From Geoglobus sp. (GTDB taxonomy: Archaea > Halobacteriota > Archaeoglobi > Archaeoglobales > Archaeoglobaceae), in assembly GCA_027019885.1 (NCBI GenBank), contig JALUWC010000049.1, positions 1-15,437 of the forward strand: a stretch of 15,437 bases of DNA. The letters run 5' to 3'. Both the position numbers and the translations under genes were made by a program. The notes beneath the pieces are model-generated. The model made no database searches and was not told the DNA's origin. It worked only from the letters and a program-made list of their open reading frames with translations. Below, piece after piece: positions 7,083-10,253 of the stretch (positions are counted from its first letter, which is position 1; each line of letters begins with the position of its first letter).

Positions 7083-7619
7083 TCAGAATGTCATGTAGGG
7101 CTCAGTGAGGTATTTCCACAGTATCGCAATGGCCGAGAGAACGATAAGAACATCCTTCAGAGTGGAGTAATCAACCCGCATGATCTCTGATAGAACCCTT
7201 GAGCCGGAGTACATCTCCCCCTTCTGAATTACCGATAGCATCCATGTTGTTCCAATGATGCTCGATGCTGCACCGACCATGAAGAAAATTTCGGTCAGCT
7301 GAGATAGAAAGAGTCCAGCTCCGAGAAACGGAATGAAGTCTGTTATGTGGTGGAGGCAGCATGCAACCATGCTTCCCCCCGTAACAGATGTGCTGGCTAT
7401 GGCGTTGCAGCTCTTGCCAAAGGATCTGATGTGGGTGAAAAGCGCTATTTGAAGCCCAAAGCCCATGTCAATGATGGCGATGTATGGGAGATAGTTCTTC
7501 AGATTCCAGTAAACCGCCTCACTGCCACCTGTGAGGTAGTTTATTCCAGCGTAGAACAGGATCAGGAGTGCTGAACCGAGAAAGCCATAAATCAGCCTTC
7601 TGTCTGCTAAGTCTCCCAT
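7083..7619 (-). CDS. Multi-spanning membrane protein with CCxHH motif, possible metal site
   Basis: A 178-residue membrane protein I do not recognise by name. Hydrophobic segments lie near 9-27, 44-63, 83-106, 112-131 and 155-171. The striking feature is GGSMVACCLHHITDFIPFLG at 81-100, with C87, C88, H90, H91 and D94 at the start of the third segment, plus C71. Clustered Cys/His/Asp in a membrane segment suggests binding of a soft metal such as copper, or of haem. Its start overlaps the end of the upstream gene by 13 bp, so the two are co-translated, and it lies downstream of a DUF411 (copper-site) gene. It ends 3 bp from the convergent helicase gene. The metal role is an inference from motif and context. 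Confidence 0.75.
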   Translation of the reverse strand: MGDLADRRLIYGFLGSALLILFYAGINYLTGGSEAVYWNLKNYLPYIAIIDMGFGLQIALFTHIRSFGKSCNAIASTSVTGGSMVACCLHHITDFIPFLGAGLFLSQLTEIFFMVGAASSIIGTTWMLSVIQKGEMYSGSRVLSEIMRVDYSTLKDVLIVLSAIAILWKYLTEPYMTF

Positions 7620-8041
7620 TTCAGAACCCTCTCTCCATCAATGTTTATCTTCAGGCTGAAACTCATCTGGCTGTATATCTCTTTAAGAGCCTCCTCTGGA
7701 AACTCCATGAATCCGTATCTGTGGTGACCCCATGATCTCTCATCTTCTTTCCATGAAATCGGCCTGAACTCCTTTCCACCAACCACAAGAACGGTCGAGT
7801 TTTTCAGATCAAATCTGTAAAGATTGCCTGAATGAGTGTCAAGGCGGAGGTAGAACGTCGCCTTTTTAAGATCAGGATACTTCGGATTGAGGAACACTGC
7901 TGTAACCTGAATGTTTCCCTCACTGATTTTTGTAAGCTCATCTTCGCTAAATGACCTGTTTGTTACCTTGTTTTTCATTGCAAGCCCTGCAAATGCTACA
8001 CCAATCAGTATCAGGATTAATGCAAGCTTTCTCATTTCCAT
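7607..8041 (-). CDS. Anchored extracytoplasmic protein of unknown function
   Basis: A 144-residue protein, not recognised. An N-terminal hydrophobic segment (about 5-22) after a MEMRK start would act as a membrane anchor or uncleaved signal, leaving a roughly 120-residue outer domain with alternating hydrophobic strands, probably beta-rich. SWGHHRYGFMEF (103-114) contains adjacent histidines H106-H107 that could bind metal. The start at 8041 is chosen because a TATA element (8072-8062) lies 26 nt upstream, fitting a leaderless message; M3 is an alternative. A 19-bp dyad fills the space between TATA and ATG. It overlaps the CCxHH membrane-protein gene by 13 bp and sits 39 bp downstream of the DUF411 gene, suggesting a shared extracytoplasmic function. 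Confidence 0.75.
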   Translation of the reverse strand: MEMRKLALILILIGVAFAGLAMKNKVTNRSFSEDELTKISEGNIQVTAVFLNPKYPDLKKATFYLRLDTHSGNLYRFDLKNSTVLVVGGKEFRPISWKEDERSWGHHRYGFMEFPEEALKEIYSQMSFSLKINIDGERVLKWET

Positions 8042-8042
8042 A

Positions 8043-8061
8043 TTTTACATTTGATGAAAAA
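8043..8061. promoter_or_regulatory. Candidate operator, copy B of a 19-bp dyad
   Basis: Read on the minus strand this is TTTTTCATCAAATGTAAAA, an imperfect palindrome (7 of 9 pairs). It differs from copy A (8598-8616) at one base of 19, and the identity continues through the following T-ATGG. It lies between the TATA box and ATG of the 7607-8041 gene, ending 1 nt before the ATG, exactly as copy A does before the methyltransferase gene. The position would block transcription start, so a repressor site is the simplest reading. Confidence 0.6.
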
Positions 8062-8072
8062 CAATATAAAAA
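8062..8072 (-). promoter_or_regulatory. TATA element of the 7607-8041 gene
   Basis: Minus-strand TTTTTATATTG centred 26 nt before the ATG at 8041. It lies in the 39-bp gap after the DUF411 gene, so the two-gene unit 7607-8041/7083-7619 probably has its own promoter. The two T5 tracts read on this strand (here and at 8061-8057) could also serve as an oligo-T terminator for DUF411 transcripts. Confidence 0.55.
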
Positions 8073-8080
8073 TGTTTCCA

Positions 8081-8566
8081 TCAGAGCTTTATGAACACCT
8101 TTCTGCCAGAATCAGACAGGATGTATATCACAAAGGGCCCTTTCTTTTCTCCAGGCATTCCAGGAGAGCCGGATGGCATTCCTGGGAGAGAAATTCCCTT
8201 TATATGGGGTTTATTCTTTAACAGCTCATCTATCGCCTCGACTGGAACATGTCCCACGACAATGTAGCCGTTTGTTACAGATGTGTGACAGCTTGCCATC
8301 TCACTGGGAATTCCAAGCTCTCTTTGCATCTCAATTATGTTTTGAACCTCCACCACATCAACCTTATAACCCCTGGATCTTAGATATTCCGTGTAAAGGT
8401 TACAGCATCCACAGTATTTTCCCTTGTAAACCGTAACAGCCCTGTCAAATGCTACTGATTTGATGTTTTTCTCGTTCCCATTTCCAGAGTTTCCGAAATA
8501 CCAGTATCCTGCAGCCAATCCAGCAGTTAAGGCGATAATCACTGCAAGGTAAGCGAGTTTGCTCAT
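8081..8566 (-). CDS. DUF411 (CopG-like) copper-site protein, membrane-anchored
   Basis: A 161-residue DUF411 protein. Bacterial CopG, of this family, is a periplasmic copper-resistance protein with a thioredoxin-like fold and a cysteine-bridged copper cluster. Features, numbered from the start chosen here: anchor or signal segment 5-24, VTVYKGKYCGCC with C52, C54 and C55 at the end of the first strand, C93-H94 in ASCHT, H106 in VVGHVPVE, and LPGMPSGSPGMPG (127-139), all hallmark positions of the family. The start at 8566 (MSKLAYLAVI) is preferred over an in-frame ATG at 8605, because a TATA box at 8588-8596 would otherwise lie inside the gene and is centred 26 nt before 8566. It shares that box with the divergent methyltransferase gene. 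Copper as the ligand is a family inference. Confidence 0.88.
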   Translation of the reverse strand: MSKLAYLAVIIALTAGLAAGYWYFGNSGNGNEKNIKSVAFDRAVTVYKGKYCGCCNLYTEYLRSRGYKVDVVEVQNIIEMQRELGIPSEMASCHTSVTNGYIVVGHVPVEAIDELLKNKPHIKGISLPGMPSGSPGMPGEKKGPFVIYILSDSGRKVFIKL

Positions 8567-8587
8567 AGAGGAGGCAGGAAAGACAGG

Positions 8588-8596
8588 TATATAAAT
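8588..8596. promoter_or_regulatory. Single shared TATA box for divergent DUF411 and methyltransferase genes
   Basis: The sequence TATATAAAT (plus strand), read ATTTATATA on the other strand, is near-symmetric and is the only TATA element between the two genes. Its centre (8592) is 26 nt from the ATG at 8618 on the plus strand and 26 nt from the ATG at 8566 on the minus strand. No Shine-Dalgarno precedes either start, so both transcripts are probably leaderless. On the minus strand the upstream purine run AAAAAG makes a better BRE than the plus-strand AAAGACAGG. Confidence 0.65.
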
Positions 8597-8597
8597 C

Positions 8598-8616
8598 TTT
8601 TTCATCAGATGTAAAA
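8598..8616. promoter_or_regulatory. Candidate operator, copy A of a 19-bp dyad
   Basis: TTTTTCATCAGATGTAAAA is a 19-bp dyad with 8 of 9 complementary pairs around the central A at 8607. It fills the space between the shared TATA box and the methyltransferase ATG at 8618. For the divergent DUF411 gene it lies directly upstream of TATA, over its BRE. A bound protein could therefore block the methyltransferase promoter and at the same time repress or activate DUF411. Copy B matches it at 18 of 19 bases and a weaker copy C at 16 of 19. Confidence 0.65.
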
Positions 8617-8617
8617 T

Positions 8618-9265
8618 ATGGTCAAGAAAGGCACTGACAAAAGAAGATACGACAGAGTGGCAGGAGTGTACGACATTTTCGAGTTGCCAATGGAGTTGAT
8701 GGCATTTTCTAAATGGCGGTCTGAGCTTTTCAGATATGTTGAGAGTGGGAAAATTCTTGAAGTGGGAATTGGAACAGGAAAGAACATCTTATATTACAGT
8801 AATTGGGATGTAGCTGGTCTTGATATAAGCCATAAAATGCTCAAAAAAGCAGTAAAAAGAGCGTTCGATTTGAATAAAAAAATTGATTTTGTTCAGGGAG
8901 ATGCTGAGTATCTTCCATTCAGGGATGAGAGCTTTGATGGCGTAATATCCACATACGTCTTCTGCTCAGTTGAGAATCCAGAAAATGGTCTTAAAGAGCT
9001 TTACAGAGTTCTTAAAACTGGTGGAAGAGCATATTTTCTTGAGCATGTGCGAAGTGAGAATGAGATTGTGGGAAAGCTGATGGATGCCGTCAATCCAGCA
9101 ATCAGGGTTATAGGTCCTGAAATCAACAGGAAGACAGTTGAAAACATAAAAAATGCTGGATTCATCATTGTAAGGGATGTGAAGCTCATGTTATCGGTTT
9201 TCAGGCTTGTAATTGCTGAAAAAGCGTTCAACCAAGCTGTTTCAGATATTCAAGGACATCATTGA
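8618..9265 (+). CDS. Class I SAM-dependent methyltransferase (UbiE/METTL7-like)
   Basis: A 215-residue methyltransferase. Motif I is ILEVGIGTGK (46-55), the acidic residue of motif II is D69 in GLDIS, and GDAEYLPF (94-101) and the later FDGVISTYVFCSV/VLKTGGRAYFLEHV blocks are standard for the Methyltransf_11 type. The N-terminal RYDRVAGVYDIFELP and the LEHV block resemble UbiE and METTL7-like enzymes, some of which methylate thiols or small molecules. The true substrate cannot be read from the sequence. The start is supported by the shared TATA box 26 nt upstream. The gene is divergent from DUF411 and carries the operator-like dyad in its promoter, so it may act on the same stress. Its 3' end overlaps the convergent cytochrome gene by 38 bp. 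Confidence 0.85.
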   Translation: MVKKGTDKRRYDRVAGVYDIFELPMELMAFSKWRSELFRYVESGKILEVGIGTGKNILYYSNWDVAGLDISHKMLKKAVKRAFDLNKKIDFVQGDAEYLPFRDESFDGVISTYVFCSVENPENGLKELYRVLKTGGRAYFLEHVRSENEIVGKLMDAVNPAIRVIGPEINRKTVENIKNAGFIIVRDVKLMLSVFRLVIAEKAFNQAVSDIQGHH

Positions 9266-9752: not shown

Positions 9753-10253
9753 CTATTCCTTGATCCAGTCACTCACGTAAATCCTGTAGGTTTTCCCGAA
9801 CCTCTCTCTGTATATCAGATCCTTTTCCTCAAGCTTCTTTATTATCATTGAAATTTTTGAGTGAGAAAATCCGGTTCTGAAATGCAATGAATCCTGCGTT
9901 ATGCCCTCATTCTCGACGACAATTCTGAATATTTTCTTCTCATCCTCATCGAGAAGCTTTTCTGCAACGGCGATTTTTTCACAACCCTCATTTTCCTCTG
10001 CCTCAATGATCTCGTCCTGGTCTCCTGTATCCGTCTGGGCGGTGTTCTTACCTTGCTGCTGCCTGTCTGCCTGTATCTGGAACATTATCGGGATTACGAC
10101 GAGCACTATCCCTGTTAACGCCAGAATTGACGGCACAATTCCGTAGAGTGGAGACACCATCATGGAGTAATGGTGAGACTGAGGAGCTATTGTGTACGAC
10201 AGGGAAAGCAATACGAGACCGGCTGCTATTGTCACCATGTACTCATTTTTCAT
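9753..10253 (-). CDS. Membrane-anchored winged-helix (MarR-like) transcription regulator
   Basis: A 166-residue predicted one-component regulator. Two membrane segments (about 7-24 and 36-58) are joined by a short outer loop holding QSHHYSMM, with H27-H28 and M31-M32 as possible metal ligands. A polar, acidic linker (60-97) leads to a C-terminal winged helix (about 100-160). There, LLDEDEKKIFRIVVENEGIT, then DSLHFRTGFSHSKISMIIKKL and the wing YRERFGKTYRIYV match the archaeal membrane-linked HTH pattern. The start at 10253 is chosen because a TATA element (10285-10278) lies about 28 nt upstream; an in-frame ATG at 10304 would place that TATA inside the gene. A dyad related to the upstream operators overlaps the start codon, suggesting autoregulation. 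It may sense metal or redox state at the cell surface; this is inference. Confidence 0.8.
   Translation of the reverse strand: MKNEYMVTIAAGLVLLSLSYTIAPQSHHYSMMVSPLYGIVPSILALTGIVLVVIPIMFQIQADRQQQGKNTAQTDTGDQDEIIEAEENEGCEKIAVAEKLLDEDEKKIFRIVVENEGITQDSLHFRTGFSHSKISMIIKKLEEKDLIYRERFGKTYRIYVSDWIKE

Follow-up and report, generated by a model that had tools for sequence, protein, structure and literature searches.

Two short palindromes, about 550 bp apart, lie ahead of two unrelated genes in a stretch of 15,437 nucleotides from Geoglobus sp. (contig JALUWC010000049.1 of assembly GCA_027019885.1; hereafter the window), and raise the question of whether a common regulator binds them, and which one. 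Comparison with related genomes argues that, quite probably, they are operators of a BlaI-type (Penicillinase_R) repressor, paired with a BlaR1-like membrane protease.

Two palindromes and their promoters

Operator copy A, TTTTTCATCAGATGTAAAA, spans positions 8598-8616 of the forward strand, and the ATG of a methyltransferase gene follows at 8618. Copy B, TTTTTCATCAAATGTAAAA, spans 8061-8043 of the reverse strand, ahead of the ATG at 8041 of a gene called here gene B. Both are imperfect palindromes, each ending one base ahead of its ATG; they are identical at 18 of 19 bases, and at 23 of 24 once extended through ATATGG. An earlier note on this DNA had described such a near-identical 19-bp dyad between TATA box and start codon, and the sequence agrees. 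The common core is TTTACA-N5-TGTAAA, from which copy A (TTTTCA-TCAGA-TGTAAA) departs by one mismatch.

The TATA-like box of gene B, TTTTTATATTG, is found at 8062-8072 of the reverse strand, and a symmetric one, TATATAAA, at 8588-8595, beside copy A. The distance from TATA to ATG, about 25-27 nt at both promoters, is consistent with leaderless starts. Some 25 nt also separate the symmetric box from the ATG, at 8566 on the reverse strand, of a gene encoding a DUF411 protein; copy A therefore probably flanks a divergent promoter, common to the methyltransferase (forward) and DUF411 (reverse) genes.

When up to three mismatches were allowed, the pattern was matched three times in the window, against 0.07 expected, and only one of 200 shuffles yielded as many. 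Over the whole 2.77-Mb assembly, A and B are the only matches with 0-1 mismatch; up to three mismatches, 18 sites are found versus 3 for a reversed control pattern. The occurrence of only two close copies, so near to each other, would fit a duplication of promoter DNA devoid of regulatory meaning. This explanation is most improbable: orthologous positions in several genomes keep a site whose half-sites have changed in different ways, and unrelated genes are preceded by the same core. From the data described below, A and B are, with high probability, real operators.

Conservation of the operator and extent of the regulon

The comparison set comprised 57 genomes of the order Archaeoglobales (G numbers), 13 of which have a DUF411 match and 11 a gene B match. 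A site precedes the methyltransferase gene in G028, G029, G023, G025 and G026, and gene B in the same five genomes (in G029 the gene is cut by the contig end), as well as in G031, G033 and G055. The genome search called for by the earlier note thus shows the motif to recur directly ahead of orthologues in relatives. In most site-bearing relatives the proteins of the cluster are only about 45-70% identical to those of the window, so that chance keeping of a non-coding match is unlikely; the common operator proposed in that note holds up accordingly.

In order to count sites at promoters, the 17-bp core was searched for with at most one mismatch, the limit used for all promoter counts given here. 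It was found at 8 of 11 gene B promoters (window's genome included; G009, G010 and G011 are the misses), 5 of 13 methyltransferase promoters, 8 of 11 promoters of CcmH-type genes and 6 of 8 of HCP-like genes, versus 1 of 153 other starts of open reading frames, taken as a control. For gene B every search match was included, while the other loci were partly fetched for holding a site or a BlaI gene; furthermore, the genomes are kin, and Fisher values from these counts are not probabilities of independent events. An identical site, TTTTACATCCAATGGAAAA, was also observed in G025 (locus L109, G025:C1:1393382) and G026 (L111, G026:C1:328371), where a TATA-like box and a potential ATG of a gene without assigned function follow closely.

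Sites precede CcmH/CcmF operons, devoted to cytochrome c maturation (Ccm), in the window's own assembly (G000:C137) and in G027, G028, G030, G025, G009, G010, G011 and G031; in G009, G010 and G011 they are tandem sites, 25 bp apart, ahead of CcmH. Others are located ahead of thioredoxin-like genes in G003, G010 and G032, ahead of a rhodanese/thioredoxin pair in G031 and, with changed outer bases, ahead of a gene for a membrane protein that bears the motif AHCPLC (G000:C507 and G028:C24). The presence of this operator at Ccm and thioredoxin-like genes takes the regulon beyond the locus. Where the earlier note pictured a common operator serving a small regulon confined to the surroundings of the copper-site gene, the common operator stands, but not the confinement: some of the genes so equipped, Ccm among them, are placed elsewhere, and the candidate repressor is not a neighbour.

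The Ccm operon of this assembly is headed by a gene for a small protein (L169:228-623, G000:C137; also in L175, L181 and L189), with sites ahead of it. The N-terminus of the protein is signal-like; a KCTLCHVQSSGYGGLNPFG motif is present, and NCBIfam diheme_GEGP is matched at 46.6 bits, for a cut-off of 300.

A genome-wide excess of the motif is present in G028, G025 and G031. With one mismatch allowed, counts of the core are also high in G042 (33, control 12) and G048 (22, control 9), both devoid of a strong BlaI match.

A candidate BlaI-type repressor and its membrane protease

The candidate repressor is a protein of 117 residues, encoded on another contig than the window (G000:C137:4095-4448), which matches the Penicillinase_R profile PF03965 at 57.4 bits (cut-off 22.6). 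It aligns with MecI over profile residues 10-112 (E 9.2e-06), but a better score went to 6jbx, a regulator of MarR type (E 3.3e-07). Of the 57 genomes, 17 have a strong BlaI-type match (E<1e-20), and BlaI and Ccm genes share the same fetched locus in 13 of 16 mapped genomes, the exceptions being G023, G024 and G055.

A BlaI profile search of named genomes yielded 49 loci, ten from Archaeoglobi and 39 from other archaea (Methanoperedens/Methanoperedenaceae, Methanosarcina, Methanolobus, ANME-2, Methanosarcinales, Methanosarcinaceae and five 'uncultured archaeon' entries), some genomes contributing two; search patterns were derived from an Archaeoglobales alignment, so that the taxonomic spread is at least this wide. 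The main evidence for BlaI as the binder comes from the non-Archaeoglobi loci, mostly from Methanosarcinales: 38 of 39 have the core at the promoter of the BlaI gene itself, whereas random windows of the same loci match it in about 0.8% of cases. Its distance from the ATG is three bases in 32 of these 38 promoters. A spacer of 5 fits 38 of 39 promoters, a spacer of 2 none, and 5 is the only length that fits. In L222, L224, L225, L229-L232, L236 and L238 (Methanosarcina, Methanolobus), the DNA that separates blaI from a divergent FtsX/ABC/FtrD-like operon holds an array of three palindromes, at intervals of about 24-28 bp.

A gene for a small membrane zinc metalloprotease (HExxH) adjoins 44 of the 49 repressor genes. 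H157, E158, H161 and E187 are invariant in the 39 partners aligned, and so are, in 39 of 39, two cysteines (CxxxC) and an MxC pair (C6/C10/M65/C67); this Cys/Met set is probably outside the cell, and the catalytic domain inside. The structure model of the protease aligns with the membrane and protease part of BlaR1 (8exs).

The BlaI/BlaR1 and MecI/MecR1 systems of staphylococci belong to the repressor family of bacterial beta-lactam resistance, in which TACA/TGTA half-sites are spaced by 2. The archaeal system resembles them (structures 1okr, 8exs) in that a Penicillinase_R repressor gene adjoins a membrane zinc metalloprotease gene, and in the palindrome at the repressor's own promoter. It differs in the half-site spacing of 5, in the archaeal promoters and in the targets, genes related to copper or serving cytochrome c maturation. 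Moreover, the beta-lactam sensor domain is absent from the archaeal partners, which as read are 188-238 residues long and end shortly past the protease domain; the invariant Cys/Met set is there in its place. Unlike BlaR1, the protease matches M48 (28.1 bits for the partner in this assembly, cut-off 20.3); M56 was not listed at E<=0.01 for this protein, and reached 16.5 bits, under the cut-off of 31, for the G003 partner.

Some observations weigh against a BlaI-type repressor as the ligand of A and B. None of 17 BlaI promoters from Archaeoglobales bears the core, degenerate versions with 2-3 mismatches being found in 11 of them; G029 has sites but no strong BlaI match; G023 has BlaI, yet no excess of the motif (10 vs 9).

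The other candidate is REG, encoded in the window at 9753-10253 of the reverse strand, with two hydrophobic helices and a winged helix-turn-helix domain (DUF7343). A His/Met-rich loop, APQSHHYSMM, is found between the two helices, and REG may possibly be a separate metal sensor. According to this alternative, the membrane-tethered REG binds the sites and its loop senses copper directly. REG belongs to the cluster both in the window and in G028 and G029; in G025 and G026 it is near the methyltransferase or DUF411 genes, and in G031 a REG-like gene is transcribed away from gene B, with the operator between the two. Strong REG relatives (E<1e-20), in several copies in some genomes, occur in 20 of 57 genomes, including all 17 with a strong BlaI, and REG accompanies the sites in G029. 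The third match of the window, a weak one of uncertain status (10264-10246, reverse strand, three mismatches), overlaps the REG start codon; it is kept at the same place in G028 and, weaker, in G029 and G030, a conservation which may be explained by its right half overlapping coding sequence. Nevertheless, none of 13 REG promoters bears the core. G001 and G014, which have REG and no strong BlaI, show neither the motif at the REG and methyltransferase promoters examined nor a genome-wide excess; in G032, which lacks a REG match, there is an exact core, located on a contig starting inside a protease partner gene. Among the 49 fetched BlaI loci (loci, not whole genomes) REG is present in one, L199, yet the palindrome marks the BlaI promoter nearly throughout the non-Archaeoglobi. 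Binding by REG is, on these grounds, improbable. What genome comparison shows, by contrast, is the operator itself, where it is placed, and that it is tied to BlaI.

Signal, gene cluster and proposed mechanism

The copper theme of the earlier note is borne out, in part, by gene content. The DUF411 protein (8081-8566, reverse strand; longer open reading frame 8081-8605), membrane-anchored and likely under the divergent promoter, matches PF04214 at 79.6 bits and aligns over 113 residues (E 6.6e-20) with structures 6wis and 6wje of the DUF411 copper protein CopG; CGCC and SCHT are common to both. Unlike CopG, it is archaeal, anchored at the N-terminus and set in another gene neighbourhood. HMA-type P-ATPases are near sites in two relatives (L207, L190), and in three loci of Methanoperedens type (L207, L209, L237) gene B and its neighbour memD lie no more than 6 kb from BlaI. 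These genes suggest copper as the signal.

CopY and CopR are copper repressors of Firmicutes, also of the Penicillinase_R family; they recognize the cop box TACANNTGTA, and CopY carries C-terminal CxC metal-binding motifs. The archaeal proteins share with them the winged helix-turn-helix family, the TACA...TGTA half-sites and copper-related targets. They differ in the spacer of 5 and in the score against NCBIfam CopY_TcrY (29.9 bits, cut-off 121.95). No CxC motif was found in the 49 archaeal repressors, 43 of which lack any Cys (L241 was read only as 23 residues), and copper sensing in the manner of CopY is therefore unlikely.

A serious alternative is that the same BlaI/protease switch responds to thiol redox or cytochrome c maturation status, and not to copper. 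CcmH/CcmF, thioredoxin-like and DsbD-like genes are often preceded by operators (in L207 sites lie ahead of a gene for a DsbD-type protein), and the CxxxC pair could form a disulfide. The invariant Met of MxC would better suit a soft metal, and the regulon includes or adjoins DUF411, HMA-type P-ATPases and gene B/memD. On this evidence a thiol signal is possible, if somewhat doubtful. In Methanosarcina, Methanolobus and Methanosarcinaceae, the operon adjoining BlaI encodes an FtsX/MacB-type permease and an FtrD-like protein; FtsX is found in 13 and FtrD in 10 of the 39 non-Archaeoglobi loci.

As to the remaining genes of the cluster, the methyltransferase (8618-9265, forward strand) is a class I S-adenosylmethionine-dependent enzyme by profile match (Methyltransf_11). 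Gene B (7607-8041, reverse strand) encodes an anchored, probably extracytoplasmic protein with a DTHSG...GHH pattern, DTH and GHH being invariant in four of four aligned sequences; its structure model has a pLDDT of 83.2. Downstream, memD (7083-7619, reverse strand) encodes a membrane protein with a CCLHH motif. Neither has a Pfam or NCBIfam match; together they form a two-gene unit, present in Archaeoglobales and in Methanoperedens-type loci.

The following mechanism is proposed. By analogy with its family, the BlaI-type repressor would bind A and B as a dimer; placed between TATA box and leaderless start, it would block assembly of the transcription complex, and at A it would sit beside a TATA box probably serving DUF411 as well. 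Envelope Cu(I), or a shift in thiol redox, would be sensed at the CxxxC...MxC set of the protease, which, once triggered, may cleave the repressor; loss of the latter would release the copper-handling and Ccm genes of the regulon. Tentatively, at slightly less than even confidence, the system may be read as a compact archaeal counterpart of BlaR1-BlaI: a Cys/Met site outside the cytoplasm would detect Cu(I) or the thiol state of the envelope, a cytoplasmic zinc protease would destroy the repressor, and copper handling would in this way be co-ordinated with cytochrome c maturation. The archaea concerned are rich in cytochromes (Geoglobus, Ferroglobus, Archaeoglobus, Methanoperedens, Methanosarcina and relatives). 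It predicts a fixed-spacer operator, a regulon and four ligand residues.

Signalling by repressor proteolysis is known mainly from bacterial antibiotic sensing. If the proposal is true, archaea would gain transmembrane signalling of this kind, and those that reduce metals or oxidise methane would have a named regulator of their copper handling and cytochrome c maturation.
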